Shown here: piece by piece, positions 49,532 to 58,766 of the stretch
Numbering within the stretch: position 1 is the stretch's first letter
Layout: each line of letters opens with the position of its first letter
Assembly (NCBI RefSeq): GCF_000526715.1
Contig: NZ_JAGP01000001.1
Coordinates: forward strand, 1,860,001 to 1,924,000
Reading direction: 5' to 3'
From: Hydrogenovibrio kuenenii DSM 12350
Lineage (GTDB): Bacteria > Pseudomonadota > Gammaproteobacteria > Thiomicrospirales > Thiomicrospiraceae
DNA: 64,000 nucleotides
Notes under the pieces: model-generated
Databases searched by the model: none
The model's input: only the letters and a program-made list of their open reading frames with translations
Told to the model about the DNA's origin: nothing
Position numbers and translations under genes: made by a program

Positions 49532-49602
49532 CAAGCACAACGTTGTGCCGCAAACAGGTATTTCTTACATTCGATCAACCATAAATGTTACGGGGAACAA
49601 AT

Positions 49603-50403
49603 ATGGATATTTCACAGTACAAAATTGATAACGAACCATTTTATGATGCTCAATCAAACGAAATCGAGCTATACGAAGCCGCCTATGATGCTCGTCTGCC
49701 AGTAATGGTAAAAGGGCCGACAGGTTGTGGTAAATCACGTTTTGTTGAGCATATGGCTTGGAAACTTGGCAAGCCTATCATCACCGTTTCTTGTAACGAA
49801 GACATCACAGCTTCTGACTTGGTTGGTCGTTATTTGCTAGATGCAAACGGCACTCGCTGGGTCGACGGCCCGCTAACCATGGCTGCTCGTTATGGCGCAA
49901 TCTGTTATTTGGATGAAATTGTTGAAGCACGTCAAGATACGATGGTTGTCATACACGCTTTGACTGACCACCGCCGTGAACTTTCGCTTGATAAAAAAGG
50001 CGAGTTGATTAAGGCACACCCTGATTTCCAATTGGTTATTTCTTATAACCCTGGTTATCAGTCACTAATGAAAGATTTGAAACAATCAACTAAACAACGT
50101 TTCTGTGCATTGGACTTTGATTACGCGGCGCCAGATGTTGAAGCCCATATCTTGCAAAAAGAAGGTAACGTTGACGAAGCAACGGCCAAAAAATTGGTAC
50201 AAATCGGTGAAGCAGCCCGTAACTTAAAAGGCCATGGTTTGGACGAAGGTATCTCTACTCGTCTTATGGTTTATGCTGCAACCTTGATCAACAAAGGCAT
50301 TACACCGGTTGAAGCTTGTAAGATGGCACTGGTTCGCCCAATCACCGATGATGCAGATATTCGCCAAACATTGGATAACACCATTGAAATGATTTTCGGC
50401 TAA
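49603..50403 (+). CDS. cbbQ: RuBisCO activase AAA+ subunit CbbQ
   Basis: A 266-residue MoxR-type AAA+ ATPase from the ATG at 49603, preceded by GGGGAA. The Walker A motif VKGPTGCGKSRF is near residue 40, NEDITASDLVGRY follows, Walker B is CYLDEI, and sensor 1 is VISYNPGYQ. With CbbO it removes inhibitory sugar phosphates from RuBisCO active sites. Confidence 0.97.
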   Translation: MDISQYKIDNEPFYDAQSNEIELYEAAYDARLPVMVKGPTGCGKSRFVEHMAWKLGKPIITVSCNEDITASDLVGRYLLDANGTRWVDGPLTMAARYGAICYLDEIVEARQDTMVVIHALTDHRRELSLDKKGELIKAHPDFQLVISYNPGYQSLMKDLKQSTKQRFCALDFDYAAPDVEAHILQKEGNVDEATAKKLVQIGEAARNLKGHGLDEGISTRLMVYAATLINKGITPVEACKMALVRPITDDADIRQTLDNTIEMIFG

Positions 50404-50608
50404 TTCATTGTTTTAGCTGGCTGTTTTTTGCGCTGCACACTACTGATTTCAGGCATATACGCTTTATATAAGCCTTCGACCAGTTTGATGCAGCACGCAA
50501 AGTCAGCCCATCTAAACTCAATGAGTTCTATTTTTAATAGAATAGTTTCAAAAGATTCCGCATAAAGCCTATGACAGAATCTTTCCAATTAAACGTGAGC
50601 GTTTAAGT

Positions 50609-52873
50609 ATGAATGAAGAATTATTTGCTGAATATCAAGAAAAGTTTACCTGTAAATTTCCAAAGGCAGTCGAGCTATTTCCCGACTTGATTGAAAATGC
50701 CGTTTCCAAGCTTTCGCCACAGGGGGTCGATGCTTATTTGGACGGCGCAAATTTCCTGTGTAAAATCGGCCAGGGTGTCGAGCCTGTTTTGGTATTTATG
50801 GAAGTCATGCCGGATATTGCTTCGCATTTCGGCCAAGGCACCAACAAAATGATTGCAGACTACGGTTATTTATTGGCGCGTAGCCCGAATAAAAAAGCCC
50901 TGATTCCTTTTTTAAATTCGTTAAGCACCGTCTGCCGCCGTATCGACACAGTGGAAGACTTACAGCATTATCTGGATATTATTGACGAATATGTCGATAA
51001 GACCCAGACGGTTATCCACGGTCACCATTCTTTGTACGAAAGTCCGGGAATGGTTGCGCTGCTTGAATCCATGCCACAGCTAATCTCGAAACTTTGCCTG
51101 AATGGTATCCGTAACTTTATCGATTACGGTGCGCGCAACTATCTGAACGCACCGGACGAACAAATCGCTTACTTTAAGTTAGAGTCGCATGACGCCAAAA
51201 GCATTATCACTCGTGAGCGTAAAGGGACAACCTTCAAAGATGTTGAGCGCCACATGGATATGCTTAAGGAATGTATGTGGGAGTGCGACTTGCCCTTTCA
51301 GACATTTTCCACTGCATTTGACCAGTTGCGCAAACCCGTGCCTTATCTAGATGACACCTTGATTGCCATTCCCGATGTTTATGACGCTGAAAATGGCGTG
51401 TCGGGTGCGGATCGTTTCCGTGCAACCCTAGCGCATATGATGGCGCACTACAGATGGTCAACACAATTAATGGCAGACAACTATGCACCGCACATGCAGT
51501 TGTTTATTTCGATATTCGAAGATAGTCGAGTTGAATACCTAGCGATACAGAAATACCCTGGCTTAAAGAAATTATTCCTAGCGCTACACCCTTATCCAGA
51601 AAAAGGCGCTTGTGACGATAAGAAACAATCGTGTCTTCGATACCGTGCTACTCGTATGTCACGCGCCTTGTTGGATGAAAATTTTGACCCGGAAAACCCA
51701 TTACTGGAAGAGTTCCGTGAACGTTTTCACAAGGTCATGGCAGAGAAAGGTGAAAACTCAACCACTGCAGACATGGCAGAAATTGGTATTGATTTCTATG
51801 TCAAATCCCGCAAGCAATCATCAGATAGCATGCCGAGCGTTTTCTTTGACGATACCGAAGTCTCCTATCGTGATGATAACCGCTACATCTGGTTCTATTA
51901 CGAAGAATACGATGAGCCAGATGAGATTCTGCCAAACGAGTATGAGAATGAAGAAAGGGTCGTCGAAAATGAAGGCGGCTTGCCGCCACGTCATTATGAT
52001 GAATGGGATTATATCTCTGAAGGCTATCGCCCTGACTGGACAACAGTTTACGAACGCCTACATCCATCTGGAGACTCGGGTAAGGTTGACCGCTTGATGG
52101 AAAAACATGGCACTTTGGCAAAACGTCTGAAAAAAATGATCGAAATGCTCAAGCCGCAAAACAAAAAGCGTATTCGTTTCCAAGAGGAAGGAGAAGAGCT
52201 TGATCTTGATGTGGCATTACGTTCGGTTATCGACTTCAAAAGCGGCCAAGCGCCTGACCCGCGTATCAACTACAGCCACACAACAGATAGTCGCAATATT
52301 GCCGTGATGTTATTGGTAGACACTTCGCAATCGTTGAATGAACGTAATCAAGAAACGGGACAAACATTGTTGGAGCTTTCCGAAGAAGCTTTGGCAATCA
52401 CATCCTGGACAGTTGAACAGTTAGGCGATAAGTTTGCCATTGCCGGCTTCTGTTCAGATACGCGCCATGAAGTTCGATACCAACACATCAAAGGTTACTC
52501 AGAAGGTTACACAGATGAAGTAAAAGCTCGTATTGCCTCGATGGAAGCATCTTATTCCACGCGAATGGGAGCAGCAATGCGTCATGCAGCGCACTACCTC
52601 GAAGCGCAACAAGCTGAGAAAAAATTGATGTTGGTGTTAACAGATGGTGAACCAGCGGATATCGATGCTAAAGACCCGCAAACGCTGATTCACGATACCC
52701 ATAAAGCCGTCGAAGAACTTGAAGGCAAAGGTATTTACAGCTATTGCATCACACTCGATCCGAACGCTGATGACTATGTGGAAAGCATCTTCGGCAACCA
52801 CTATACGGTCATAGATCAAGTCGAGAAATTACCTGAACAACTACCGCAAGTGTTTATGAAATTGACCCATTAA
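50609..52873 (+). CDS. cbbO: RuBisCO activase adaptor CbbO (von Willebrand A domain)
   Basis: A 754-residue protein. A helical N-terminal region (about 1-500) includes an acidic stretch, and a C-terminal VWA domain carries the MIDAS motif LLVDTSQSLNE (DxSxS) and LMLVLTDGEPADID. CbbO docks the CbbQ hexamer onto RuBisCO. It lies 205 bp after cbbQ, an unusually long gap in which I see no gene; an own promoter may be there. Confidence 0.96.
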   Translation: MNEELFAEYQEKFTCKFPKAVELFPDLIENAVSKLSPQGVDAYLDGANFLCKIGQGVEPVLVFMEVMPDIASHFGQGTNKMIADYGYLLARSPNKKALIPFLNSLSTVCRRIDTVEDLQHYLDIIDEYVDKTQTVIHGHHSLYESPGMVALLESMPQLISKLCLNGIRNFIDYGARNYLNAPDEQIAYFKLESHDAKSIITRERKGTTFKDVERHMDMLKECMWECDLPFQTFSTAFDQLRKPVPYLDDTLIAIPDVYDAENGVSGADRFRATLAHMMAHYRWSTQLMADNYAPHMQLFISIFEDSRVEYLAIQKYPGLKKLFLALHPYPEKGACDDKKQSCLRYRATRMSRALLDENFDPENPLLEEFRERFHKVMAEKGENSTTADMAEIGIDFYVKSRKQSSDSMPSVFFDDTEVSYRDDNRYIWFYYEEYDEPDEILPNEYENEERVVENEGGLPPRHYDEWDYISEGYRPDWTTVYERLHPSGDSGKVDRLMEKHGTLAKRLKKMIEMLKPQNKKRIRFQEEGEELDLDVALRSVIDFKSGQAPDPRINYSHTTDSRNIAVMLLVDTSQSLNERNQETGQTLLELSEEALAITSWTVEQLGDKFAIAGFCSDTRHEVRYQHIKGYSEGYTDEVKARIASMEASYSTRMGAAMRHAAHYLEAQQAEKKLMLVLTDGEPADIDAKDPQTLIHDTHKAVEELEGKGIYSYCITLDPNADDYVESIFGNHYTVIDQVEKLPEQLPQVFMKLTH

Positions 52874-52913
52874 TTTCATTAATTCGCTATAATTGTTTCT
52901 ATAGAAAAATCTC

Positions 52914-52938
52914 AATGCCCAATTTTTGGGCATTTTTT
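52914..52938 (+). terminator. Rho-independent terminator of cbbO
   Basis: AATGCCCAA TTT TTGGGCATT followed by T's, between cbbO and the carbonic anhydrase gene. Confidence 0.86.
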
Positions 52939-52970
52939 ATGCCTTTAAAAGACATATTTGGAGAATAAGC

Positions 52971-53624
52971 ATGTGCGAAAAATGTGATAGTAATGCCGCT
53001 ATCGAGCAACTCTTTGCCAATAATGAAGAGTGGATTAAAGAGGTCAATGAAGCCGACCCTCATTTCTTTCAAAGCCTGGTCGCTCAACAATCTCCCGAAT
53101 ATCTATGGATAGGTTGCTCCGATAGTCGCGTCCCTGCAAACGAATTGGTCAAAATGGATCCGGGTACGATTTTCGTACACCGAAATATCGCCAACCTAGT
53201 CAACTCCAGCGACATGAATGTCCTAACGGTCATTCAATATGCAGTTGAAGTCCTTAAAGTTAAACACATTATCGTCAATGGACACTACGGATGTGGTGGG
53301 GTAATGGCGGCTTTAAATGAGGGCAACCCAGACTTAATTGACCATTGGATTCGTCCGATTCGTAAATATTTCCACCACAACCGCAAAGAGTTGGAAGCTT
53401 TGGCTGAAAAAGAAAAGGTTAATCGTTTATGCGAAATTAATGTGGTTGAACAGGTGCGCAATATCGCACATATTCCAGCGGTTCGCCATGCTTGGGAAAA
53501 AGGTCAAGAACTCGCGATTCATGGCTTTATCTATGACATCAAAGACGGTCGACTACACAATATGAATGTGACCATCGATACCATAGAAAAAGCAGAAAAA
53601 GCGATTCTACGCGAGCTCTGCTAG
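52971..53624 (+). CDS. Beta-class carbonic anhydrase
   Basis: 217 residues from the ATG at 52971, preceded by GGAG at good spacing; an in-frame ATG at 52926 lies inside the terminator. Zinc ligands and the Asp-Arg dyad are in WIGCSDSRVPANELV and VNGHYGCGGV. It has no signal peptide, so it is cytoplasmic. Placed after cbbO, it interconverts CO2 and bicarbonate for RuBisCO. Confidence 0.97.
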   Translation: MCEKCDSNAAIEQLFANNEEWIKEVNEADPHFFQSLVAQQSPEYLWIGCSDSRVPANELVKMDPGTIFVHRNIANLVNSSDMNVLTVIQYAVEVLKVKHIIVNGHYGCGGVMAALNEGNPDLIDHWIRPIRKYFHHNRKELEALAEKEKVNRLCEINVVEQVRNIAHIPAVRHAWEKGQELAIHGFIYDIKDGRLHNMNVTIDTIEKAEKAILRELC

Positions 53625-55430: not shown

Positions 55431-55721
55431 TTACAGATTAAGCAGGTTGCTACTCACCTCTTTCGGACACTGCCGACGACAATCCATAGACCATTCGACA
55501 GCGCAACTATCGCTAAAATCGCAATCTCGACAAACCTTTTCTGCACAAGCATGCAAACATGCTTGTTGCACCAGCCGTTTAGAAGCACTGTCAACTGCAT
55601 GAATATCTGCCCCACATAAAACGCCTAGGCGCATCAAATCCAGTAACTTTTCAGTCGAAAGTCCAATCACAACCTCTGAATGCCTTTCCGTGTGTTGTTT
55701 AGCGAAATTTTGATTGATCAT
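55431..55721 (-). CDS. Small Cys-rich protein
   Basis: A 96-residue protein of unknown family. The second half has eight Cys in about 35 residues (ACLHACAEKVC, RDCDFSDSC, and MDCRRQC), a pattern suited to an Fe-S cluster or other metal centre. There is no signal peptide. Its start is 61 bp from the Fur box that also serves the divergent outer-membrane gene, so it is probably iron-regulated. Confidence 0.7.
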   Translation of the reverse strand: MINQNFAKQHTERHSEVVIGLSTEKLLDLMRLGVLCGADIHAVDSASKRLVQQACLHACAEKVCRDCDFSDSCAVEWSMDCRRQCPKEVSSNLLNL

Positions 55722-55781: not shown

Positions 55782-55836
55782 AGTAATAATAATTATTATC
55801 ATTACTATTGACATTTACTAACGCCTTTCCTATGAT
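55782..55836 (+). promoter_or_regulatory. Fur box and sigma-70 promoter of the flavin/iron operon
   Basis: AGTAATAATAATTATTATC (55782-55800) matches 15 of 19 Fur-consensus positions within a longer AT palindrome. It directly precedes TTGACA (55808-55813), a 17-bp spacer and TATGAT (55831-55836). Fur bound here would block the promoter and possibly the divergent Cys-rich gene. Confidence 0.75.
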
Positions 55837-55895
55837 ACGCAAAAGTTATTGATAACACTTCTCATAATCATTTATAAAATAAGGTTACATATTCT

Positions 55896-56810
55896 ATGCA
55901 AGGCAAACCACTGAATAATTCTTTAGCACTCTATTCCATCTTGATCGGCCTACCTAGCTTAGGCTTTCTCAACACTGCACTGGCTGGAGAGCAATTGCTT
56001 GGTTACACACAAGGTGCTGAACCTTTACCTAAAGGCGCATCAGAGTTTTACCAAATTTTCACTACTCGAAATGACAAAGGGAAAGGTACTTACCATGCGC
56101 TAGACAGTAAAACTGAAATCGAACATGGTTTTACTAACCGTTTTTCAGGGTCTTTCGCTATCACAGGTCATCAAATCAACACAAACGGTTTACTGATTGA
56201 CGGTTATCTTCCTCAAGAAAAAAACAAATCGTTTAGTTTTAGCGGCATGGAAGCAGAGATGAAGTATGCATTTCTAACCCCTGCTCTAAATGATATTGGT
56301 CTCTCAACAACTTTTGGACTGTCTTATGACACAGTTGACTCTCATTCTGGTCAAAAGAAAGACACACTATCTGCTGATGTTGGCGTACAACTTCAAAAAT
56401 ACTTTATGGATGGACAGCTTGTCTGGCTAAACAATGCCAGTATGGAATCAACCTATGCAAAACGCCCTGCCATTACTGGTATCAACGATGAAAGTGTCTG
56501 GCCAACTACACCAGAAATGGAGATTGAATTAACCGCTAGTACAGGTATCTCTTATCGCTTTACAAACAACTGGTCTATCGGTACTGAAGCGGTTTACCAA
56601 ACTGAATTTGAAACAGAAGTAGGTCAGGAACGTTGGTCTCTATTTGCCGGTCCATCCATTCACTATGGAGACCAAAAATTCTGGGCAACGCTTACTTATC
56701 TGCCACAAGTAGTTGGTGGCGGTGAACGTTACCCTGGCCAATCCAGAGGTTTGCACCTGATTGAAAAAACCAAGTACGAAACCAAACTCAAACTTGGCTA
56801 TAACTTCTAA
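55896..56810 (+). CDS. Outer-membrane beta-barrel protein (DUF6662-like)
   Basis: A 304-residue protein. An export signal ends near NTALA|GEQLLGYTQGAE. Many amphipathic beta segments with aromatic ends follow (for example RFSGSFAITGHQI and KFWATLTYLPQVVGGG), and the protein ends in Phe (KLKLGYNF). There is no TonB box or plug domain, so it is not a classic siderophore receptor. It is the first gene behind the Fur-controlled promoter. Confidence 0.78.
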   Translation: MQGKPLNNSLALYSILIGLPSLGFLNTALAGEQLLGYTQGAEPLPKGASEFYQIFTTRNDKGKGTYHALDSKTEIEHGFTNRFSGSFAITGHQINTNGLLIDGYLPQEKNKSFSFSGMEAEMKYAFLTPALNDIGLSTTFGLSYDTVDSHSGQKKDTLSADVGVQLQKYFMDGQLVWLNNASMESTYAKRPAITGINDESVWPTTPEMEIELTASTGISYRFTNNWSIGTEAVYQTEFETEVGQERWSLFAGPSIHYGDQKFWATLTYLPQVVGGGERYPGQSRGLHLIEKTKYETKLKLGYNF

Positions 56811-56836
56811 TTTCTGATTCCTCCTAAGTTGAAAGC

Positions 56837-56870
56837 GTTTGAATCTCGGTTCAAACGTTTTCGTTTTTTA
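56837..56870 (+). terminator. Terminator-like hairpin inside the flavin operon
   Basis: CGTTTGAA TCTCGG TTCAAACG followed by a T-rich run. It would reduce expression of the FMN-binding protein and later genes relative to the outer-membrane protein. Confidence 0.7.
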
Positions 56871-56887
56871 TTTTGGATTGACCCTTT

Positions 56888-57430
56888 ATGAAACCATTAA
56901 TTCCTATTTTCACATTGCCTTTAACGGTTATTGCCTACCCGGTCTATGCGGTGCAATACTTTACGCCTGAGCAGGCACAAGTCGCGCTGTTCGGAGACAA
57001 GGCCAAGTTCACCCCAAGCTTCGTCAAAATGAGCGACGAGCAACGTGATGCCATTGAAGACATCAGTGATGTCCGTCAACGCTGGAAAACCCAAAAAGTC
57101 TGGAAAACTTACCAAAACGGTCAGTTTCAAGGCTGGTTCATTATCGATAAAGTCATCGGCAAACATGAGTTCATCACCTACGCCACCGCTATTTCTCCTG
57201 AAGGCAAAGTGCTTGGCATCGAAGTGATGGATTACCGTGAAACCTATGGTGACCAAATTCGTCAGGCAAGCTGGCGAGAGCATTTTATAGGTGCAACCGA
57301 CAAAAGCCCGCTTAAACTTCAAGAAGACATTCCCAATATCAGTGGTGCCACCTTATCGTGCCGTAATGTGACCAATGGCGTAAAACGATTACTCGCACTC
57401 TACGAAGTGATGCTAAAAGGTCAGCACTAA
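56888..57430 (+). CDS. Exported FMN-binding-domain protein
   Basis: A 180-residue periplasmic protein. The signal ends near PVYA|VQYF. The C-terminal FMN_bind domain holds ISGATLSCRNVTNG (SGATLS at 152-157), the place where ApbE attaches FMN through a phosphoester to the last Ser or Thr. The acidic residue usually three before the first Ser is Pro here, with Asp two residues earlier. The adjacent apbE supports covalent flavinylation. Confidence 0.85.
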   Translation: MKPLIPIFTLPLTVIAYPVYAVQYFTPEQAQVALFGDKAKFTPSFVKMSDEQRDAIEDISDVRQRWKTQKVWKTYQNGQFQGWFIIDKVIGKHEFITYATAISPEGKVLGIEVMDYRETYGDQIRQASWREHFIGATDKSPLKLQEDIPNISGATLSCRNVTNGVKRLLALYEVMLKGQH

Positions 57431-57435
57431 ATACT

Positions 57436-58275
57436 ATGAAAGTCGAAAAAAGAATGAAGCCGATGCTCGGCACTTTTGTTGAAATTGGACTGGCTGTTGA
57501 CAGCCGGCTCCACCCTGCTTTTGACATGGCTTTTGGCAAAATCGCGCAAATACAATCCATGATGAGTTTTTATGATCCAAAAAGCGAACTTTCCCAGCTG
57601 AACAAAAATCCAAACCAATGGGTAGAGGTCTCAGCCGAAACCGCTGAAGTCATACAGCATGCAAAAAGTTTATCTCAGCAATCAAACGGCCTTTTCAACC
57701 CGACACTTGGCGGTGAGTTGATAGAAAGACGTGTGCTCCCCAATCACTTCATCCATCGCTTTGAATCAAGAGGTGTCGCACAAGACATTGCCATAGACAA
57801 CAACAAAGTTTTTTTAACCCAACCCATTCTCCTTTCTTTAGACGGCATCGCCAAAGGCTATGCGGTGGATAAGGCAATTGAAACACTAAAAATAGAAGGC
57901 ATTGAGAGTGGCTGGGTTAACGCAGGCGGAGACATTCAGGTCTTTGGTCATTTAACGCTACCTGTTGCTTTGCGCTTGCCTGAAAAAACACATGCAGAAC
58001 CACAACGCCCTTTGTGTGAACTCCACAACCAAGCCATCGCATCTTCTCAGGCCGGTCAAGAGATTGACCAATATTATCCAGGACATATCATTGCACCTAA
58101 AGACCGAAACATATCACCGGCATTGGTTAGCGTTATTGCTCACGAAGCCTGGTTAGCGGACGGTTTGACCAAAGTATTCGCCCTGGCAGATGAAGCTGAG
58201 CGCAACCACTTCGCACAGGTGTTTAATGTCGCTTATCACCTACATCCCTGCAACCCAACTAAACAGCATAATTAA
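57436..58275 (+). CDS. apbE: FAD:protein FMN transferase (ApbE)
   Basis: A 279-residue flavin transferase with MKPMLGTFVEIGL at the start, MMSFYDPKSELSQLN, LSLDGIAKGYAVDKAIE and WVNAGGDIQVFG. It uses FAD to flavinylate target proteins, here most likely the preceding FMN_bind protein (5 bp gap). No signal peptide or lipobox is visible, although classic ApbE is exported. Confidence 0.92.
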   Translation: MKVEKRMKPMLGTFVEIGLAVDSRLHPAFDMAFGKIAQIQSMMSFYDPKSELSQLNKNPNQWVEVSAETAEVIQHAKSLSQQSNGLFNPTLGGELIERRVLPNHFIHRFESRGVAQDIAIDNNKVFLTQPILLSLDGIAKGYAVDKAIETLKIEGIESGWVNAGGDIQVFGHLTLPVALRLPEKTHAEPQRPLCELHNQAIASSQAGQEIDQYYPGHIIAPKDRNISPALVSVIAHEAWLADGLTKVFALADEAERNHFAQVFNVAYHLHPCNPTKQHN

Positions 58276-58304
58276 TGCACGTCAGATAAAAAACGGACAA
58301 CATT

Positions 58305-58766
58305 ATGAATGGTTACCCTAAAGGCTTTTTAATCTCCCTGATTACCGTCAGCCTACTCCTGATTATCACAGGATTGCTGCTCATCCCCGCTTTTCTCGTC
58401 TTCCGACTTGAACAGGAACAAGACTGGCTCATGAACCTAAGTATCGCCAGCGGCAACCTAAGACAAAACCTCACCGTATTTCATGCTATTTTCGGTTGGA
58501 CAATGGTCTGGTTTATCGGTGCGCTTTGGAGCATCCATATCCGTTCCCATTGGCGCAAACATGAAAATCGAATCAATGGCATCGCTTTTCTGATTATTTG
58601 GGCTGTCTTAATCATCAGCGCCTTAGGCATTTACTATTTCGGCACCCCAGACTGGTCTAAAACCAGCAGTATTATCCATGTGCTCTTCGGTGTAATCGTT
58701 CCGTTTATGCTTATCGCACATAAAATCATCGGCAAGAAAACACTCAAAAAACCGAACAGAAAATAA
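58305..58766 (+). CDS. Four-helix membrane protein, b-type cytochrome-like
   Basis: A 153-residue protein with four hydrophobic helices (about 7-29, 56-79, 90-110, 122-141). Helix 2 has His residues at both ends (FHAIFGWTMVWFIGALWSIHIRSHW), and helix 4 has IIHVLFGVIVPFMLIAHK. Four His on two helices could hold two b hemes. It is the last gene of the operon and could pass electrons from quinol to the flavinylated protein. Heme binding is inferred. Confidence 0.72.
   Translation: MNGYPKGFLISLITVSLLLIITGLLLIPAFLVFRLEQEQDWLMNLSIASGNLRQNLTVFHAIFGWTMVWFIGALWSIHIRSHWRKHENRINGIAFLIIWAVLIISALGIYYFGTPDWSKTSSIIHVLFGVIVPFMLIAHKIIGKKTLKKPNRK

Follow-up and report, generated by a model that had tools for sequence, protein, structure and literature searches.

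Gene Content and Conservation of the Locus

The locus described here lies in a 64 kb window, the whole stretch of DNA that was analyzed, and consists of four genes on one strand preceded by a Fur box and a promoter (Table 1). The open reading frames lie where a preliminary description of the same DNA had placed them. Relatives were gathered by scanning an alignment of the FMN_bind protein against 84,980 species genomes, which yielded 239 candidates, of which 80 were kept. These were picked by two conserved stretches of the protein, V[IVL]G[KR]HE[FYL]IT and [GQ]IE[IV][ML][DE]YRE, so that invariance within these stretches is partly a selection effect; no such selection bore on the flavinylation motif, ApbE, the cytochrome, or the barrel.

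Table 1. Features of the four-gene cassette and its upstream region (positions within the window).
Feature	Position	Strand	Remarks
Divergent Cys-rich 96-aa ORF	55431..55721	-	Same place in relatives G009, G011, and G022
Whole locus: Fur box, promoter, and the genes for DUF6662, FMN_bind, ApbE homologue, and four-helix membrane protein	55782-58766	+	
Fur box, extended, overlapping 19-mers	55782..55806	.	Just upstream of the -35 element
Sigma-70 promoter, TTGACA-17-TATGAT	55808..55836	+	11/12 match
Possible second Fur operator	55851..55875	.	14/19; also in G009 and G011
Gene 1, DUF6662 outer-membrane protein, signal peptide, predicted 12-strand barrel	55896..56810	+	PF20367
Strong intrinsic terminator between gene 1 and genes 2-4	56830..56863	+	15 pairs, then T6
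Gene 2, exported FMN_bind protein	56888..57430	+	PF04205
Gene 3, signal-less ApbE-like protein	57436..58275	+	PF02424; separate clade; K246 in place of a presumed metal-ligand Thr
Gene 4, candidate four-helix di-heme b-type cytochrome	58305..58766	+	Predicted ligands H60, H78, H125, and H139, from conserved His

Of the 80 relatives, 70 carry all four genes in this order with differing flanks, and some of the ten relatives without a full ordered cassette lie at contig ends. This genome-neighborhood survey, which the preliminary description had proposed, made the original observation stronger. Carriers are found among gamma-, beta-, and alphaproteobacteria, Verrucomicrobia, and Bdellovibrionota (Bdellovibrionales), among others, and include Shewanella sp. 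ANA-3, which can be cultured in the laboratory; intergenic spacing is tight, with a median of -4 nt both for genes 2 and 3 and for genes 3 and 4. Among 56 genomes related to that of the window, DUF6662 and the gene 4 protein co-occur in the same five, except for one odd DUF6662 match (G033, described below), and in all five the genes form one block in identical order. A class sample of 369 genomes gave five further DUF6662 matches; four score above the family cut-off, each of them within the whole block, and the fifth falls short of it. No conserved fifth gene was found: flanking genes are shared only inside individual clades, of which the Verrucomicrobia group is one. Since the four genes stay together while all of their surroundings change, they very likely constitute one functional unit.

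Predicted Iron Control and Transcriptional Organization

Within the extended Fur box, the 19-mer AGTAATAATAATTATTATC (55782-55800) agrees with the consensus GATAATGATAATCATTATC at 15 of 19 positions and lies seven bases ahead of the promoter, as anticipated by the preliminary description, which had noted a Fur box adjoining a near-consensus promoter. When the intergenic sequence is shuffled 1000 times with its dinucleotides preserved, two shuffles score as high, and the whole 64 kb holds only three sites at this level, two of which overlap at the cassette Fur box. The possible second operator reads TTCTCATAATCATT in the window and has a counterpart, GATTCTCATAATCATTAAC, that scores 15/19 at locus L009; the leader at L010 contains TTCTCATAATCATTTAT, and the G011 cassette likewise has a 15/19 Fur box upstream.

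Across the cassettes, the best box match in the 200 bases before the first gene was scored against shuffles of the same bases. Of 69 cassettes, 48% are preceded by a Fur-like box with z>2 and 23% by one with z>3; for 396 control genes, taken from the same loci, the shares are 5% and 1% (Mann-Whitney p=2e-13). A near-perfect example is GATAATGATAATGATTCTC at L072. About half of the cassettes lack a clear Fur box, and among those from Verrucomicrobia most do. Fur itself is encoded in all ten genomes tested. With a box at its promoter that is conserved across relatives, the cassette is a likely member of the Fur regulon. The enrichment thus supports the iron control claimed from the single locus, and regulation of the cassette by iron, as predicted from these upstream sequences, is well supported. 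The divergent 96-aa ORF, which may share the cassette Fur box, matches the PA4570 family weakly; PA4570 is a Pseudomonas gene that is induced by iron starvation and has its own Fur site (PMC13277308).

The terminator behind gene 1 is a feature that the preliminary description had missed. Its hairpin folds with z=-3.2 in the window and z=-5.3 in G011, where the stem is kept although letters have changed on both sides of the pairs, so that it is probably real in both; it is absent between genes 1 and 2 in G009. With this terminator in place, the product of gene 1 probably outnumbers those of genes 2-4, which are probably expressed by read-through.

The Predicted DUF6662 Barrel

The 304-aa product of gene 1 matches PF20367 with 296 bits (cut-off 27, 5e-88), and its AlphaFold2 model has a mean pLDDT of 92. 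Identification as a TonB-dependent receptor was rejected, as the protein has no plug match, 12 rather than 22 strands, and a length of only 304 aa; the earlier reading of the gene as encoding an outer-membrane barrel without TonB features is therefore upheld. The nearest solved folds found by Foldseek are FapF and a COG4313 channel, which belong to the same barrel fold class but have about 8-12% identity to DUF6662 and no common gene context that could be seen. In DUF6662, one His and a number of charged residues never vary, a hint that the barrel serves a specific ligand or partner and is more than a simple pore.

The Candidate Membrane Cytochrome

Gene 4 encodes a 153-aa protein without a Pfam match. 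Of its six His residues, H60, H78, H125, and H139 are kept in 74-75 of 75 sequences, the remaining two lying outside conserved columns, in a family whose mean column identity is only 29% (a similar set of 68 sequences). The AlphaFold2 model (mean pLDDT 95) has helices at residues 8-25, 50-84, 89-111, and 115-148, of which the second and fourth are the two long ones and carry H60 with H78 and H125 with H139, respectively. Lys/Arg-rich stretches after these two helices suggest that their ends face the cytosol, which would place the pair H60 and H125 near the periplasm and the pair H78 and H139 near the cytosol. The window's own protein falls below the curated cut-offs of the DUF4405 and b561 models; among 68 relatives, however, 27 match cytochrome b561 (Ni_hydr_CYTB) weakly (best 2e-7) and 19 match DUF4405 weakly (best 2e-5). 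Searching the sequences of the PDB with a profile of the cytochrome brought up no relative, and the best cytochrome in a Foldseek search was hydrogenase-1 cytochrome b (probability 0.90, with a poor E-value of 0.67). The invariant His residues, the confident model, and the b561 and DUF4405 matches agree with the preliminary view of a four-helix membrane protein with four His suited to two hemes.

Two known groups offer the closest comparisons. Prokaryotic cytochrome b561 and Ni-Fe hydrogenase cytochrome b (PF01292, HyaC) supply the top cytochrome fold match and the weak sequence matches of the relatives, although the window protein passes no curated cut-off and no hydrogenase is encoded nearby. 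DUF4405 proteins have been shown to bind heme b and are linked to apbE (PMC10979944). Like the cassette protein, for which two hemes are predicted and which some of its relatives connect to this family by sequence match, DUF4405 cytochromes and FezC combine four conserved His, two hemes, and an apbE link (PMC10979944). The cassette differs in having four rather than six helices, FMN_bind rather than flavodoxin, and, in addition, a barrel and Fur control.

The FMN_bind Protein and an Unusual ApbE Homologue

The product of gene 2 matches PF04205 with 42.6 bits (cut-off 22, 1e-10). Relatives have a hydrophobic N-terminus in 72 of 80 cases and an AxA-like site in 67 of 80; Tat export of a pre-flavinylated protein was rejected, a twin-Arg being present in one of 80. 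The protein contains the motif D147-x-x-N150-I-S-G-A-T155-L-S157, in which N150, G153, T155, and S157 are found in 81 of 81 sequences, and NISGATLS is nearly fixed in the family. An exported FMN_bind protein with SGATLS, as first described, is thus well founded. ApbE attaches FMN to the last residue of D-x-x-[ST]-G-A-[ST] (PMC12052999), and by this rule T155 is the likely FMN site. The [ST]GAT is retained, but the Asp lies at -5 in 77 of 78 scored FMN_bind proteins and at the usual -3 in none of the 78.

Gene 3 encodes an ApbE homologue (PF02424, 130 bits, cut-off 25.6, 1e-37), so that part of the preliminary description stands; the ordinary periplasmic enzyme that it implied does not fit the sequence, and the separate clade and altered active site described here had gone unnoticed. 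In a tree, the cassette proteins form a clade of their own (support 100/100), and the branch leading to it has a length of 1.8 changes per column. A signal peptide was found in no member of the clade, the proteins beginning directly at RxRPLLGT with neither an export signal nor a lipobox. The general-base His is present in 7 of 75 cassette ApbEs compared with all 47 ordinary ApbEs, a comparison set of mostly high-scoring matches from the window's phylum in which rarer ApbE types may be missing. The window's own protein is among those that retain it (residue 217, the position of catalytic His257 of V. cholerae). Four positions after the Asp, Lys is found in 73 of 73 cassette ApbEs, whereas all 47 others have Thr and none has Lys; Thr also occurs four positions after the same Asp in the solved ApbEs 1VRM, 6NXI, and 4XDT. 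We take this Thr, which is conserved throughout the ApbEs compared, to be a metal ligand. The other conserved positions, K140, D145, S204, and D242, are retained, among them the Ser and Asp of the described ApbE triad. The cassette protein thus shares a domain family and several conserved positions with ordinary FAD:protein FMN transferases. A clade without an export signal, in which two residues otherwise universal among the ApbEs compared are lost or replaced, does not fit an ordinary periplasmic ApbE that flavinylates its partner, and the product of gene 3 is best called simply an ApbE homologue.

Modification of FMN_bind by a second ApbE was rejected as a general rule: in four genomes (G359, G424, G425, and G426) the cassette holds both the sole ApbE and the sole FMN_bind protein, and a fifth (G427) has no ApbE besides the cassette copy. 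It follows that in these genomes either the altered, apparently cytosolic ApbE modifies an exported protein, or FMN_bind is not covalently flavinylated. This conflict of compartments is the most interesting point raised by the cassette, and it poses a testable question: does an ApbE without a signal peptide, the usual His, and the presumed metal-ligand Thr still flavinylate, and if so, in which compartment? The cytosolic ApbE of Klebsiella pneumoniae (reviewed in PMC12052999) likewise has no signal peptide, but it acts on a soluble fumarate reductase of the cytosol, whereas the presumed cassette substrate carries a Sec-type signal.

Proposed Function and Alternatives

All evidence for the cassette is computational, and from it we infer heme binding, covalent FMN, the electron donor and acceptor, which way electrons flow, and what the barrel does. 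With moderate confidence, the cassette can be explained as a Fur-repressed, self-contained chain in which a two-heme cytochrome feeds electrons to a flavin protein of the periplasm, with ferric iron as the likeliest substrate to be reduced; its electron-transfer parts are well supported. Under iron shortage, Fur repression would be lifted and the cassette switched on. The cytochrome would then take electrons, most likely from quinol, and pass them to FMN_bind, to which the cassette's own ApbE probably attaches FMN at T155. In the periplasm, the reduced flavin would pass electrons to ferric iron or one of its complexes, and the resulting Fe2+ would be taken up through FeoB, for which the window's genome (G000) has a strong full-length match elsewhere than at the cassette; the DUF6662 barrel would pass the substrate, or a small ligand, across the outer membrane.

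The choice of ferric iron leans on analogy. PepSY-type flavinylation clusters (DUF2271, PepSY, and ApbE) are Fur-repressed in Shewanella and Caulobacter, and ferric reduction has been proposed for them (PMC8238504). They resemble the proposed cassette chain in combining a membrane heme protein, ApbE, and a flavinylated exported protein (PMC8238504), and by this likeness assimilatory ferric reduction under Fur control appears to be the likeliest role. A Pfam scan found neither PepSY nor DUF2271 among the cassette proteins, which differ in having another cytochrome family, FMN_bind instead of DUF2271, a signal-less ApbE, and, nearly always, DUF6662. PMC8238504 does not name the cassette among the systems of its main text, and neither DUF6662 nor the gene set had a literature match in the open-access text searched, in keeping with the earlier impression of a little-described gene set. 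It is accordingly a variation on known flavinylation-linked electron chains for which that open-access text holds no description: a compact, portable addition to flavin-based extracytosolic electron chains that ties them to iron supply across several bacterial groups. Counted against ferric reduction by this chain are the missing cytosolic NAD(P)H-binding partner, the share of cassettes without a clear Fur box, the lack of a constant iron-transport neighbor, the Asp at -5, and the pairing of a signal-less ApbE with an exported FMN_bind protein.

The chief rival is iron-sparing electron carriage, in which a flavin-based periplasmic carrier replaces c-type cytochromes and feeds a reductase encoded elsewhere, the target not being iron. 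Fur control fits this idea, an exchange of flavin for heme has been proposed (PMC8238504), and the flanks vary, so the acceptor may well be encoded elsewhere. The module itself spends two hemes, however, and it nearly always includes an outer-membrane barrel for which a carrier would have no need, which makes this alternative rather unlikely.

A separate doubt concerns the ApbE homologue, which may no longer transfer FMN and instead bind or deliver flavin in the cytosol, the flavin of FMN_bind being non-covalent or attached by another ApbE. The loss of the general base in 68 of 75 members, the replacement of Thr by Lys, and the absence of a signal peptide would all accord with such a protein. 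We consider this improbable: K140, D145, S204, and D242 persist, the SGAT motif is intact, and in the five genomes without another ApbE no second enzyme can modify FMN_bind. In place of a non-transferring protein, we advance, tentatively, a transferring one: the cassette ApbE may be a cytosolic transferase that has Lys where a magnesium ligand would be expected and mostly does without the His base. It would flavinylate a co-evolved D-x-x-N-I-S-G-A-T motif ahead of Sec export or in its course, and would belong to a widespread, so far undescribed ferric reductase system that is controlled by iron and has an outer-membrane channel to itself.

A flavin-based outer-membrane conduit, in which the barrel and FMN_bind would pass electrons to an external acceptor like porin-cytochrome complexes, would account for the adjacency and joint conservation of the two genes and for the invariant charged residues and His of the barrel, but it is very improbable, since a 12-strand barrel is far narrower than those of known conduits and could hardly hold a 180-aa protein, and the cassette contains no external flavoprotein or multiheme cytochrome.

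Neighboring Genes and Locus Variants

In the surveyed flanks, neither a ferrous transporter gene nor a siderophore gene regularly accompanies the cassette. Iron-linked neighbors occur in some genomes, with a bacterioferritin-like gene upstream in three loci and a TonB-like gene downstream in three (roles read by eye). In G119, genes resembling imelysin, a di-heme oxidoreductase, and DUF1513 adjoin the cassette on the same strand (L025:7047-11925; read by eye). The odd match in G033 (L013:6097-6900) joins a TonB-receptor-plug-like N-terminus to the C-terminal half of DUF6662, possibly as a deletion fusion, and adjoins genes that resemble a heme ABC uptake set (read by eye). One cassette contains a tandem pair of FMN_bind genes (L129:6001-7167). 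Three genomes encode a coiled-coil porin-like protein within the cassette or close to it (L027:6557-7879, and downstream of the cassette at L112 and L129); no DUF6662 was detected at L112, where this protein may stand in for the barrel. Upstream of the cassette in the window itself (49585-53624) are CbbQ/CbbO-like and carbonic-anhydrase-like genes, which fit a chemolithoautotroph.
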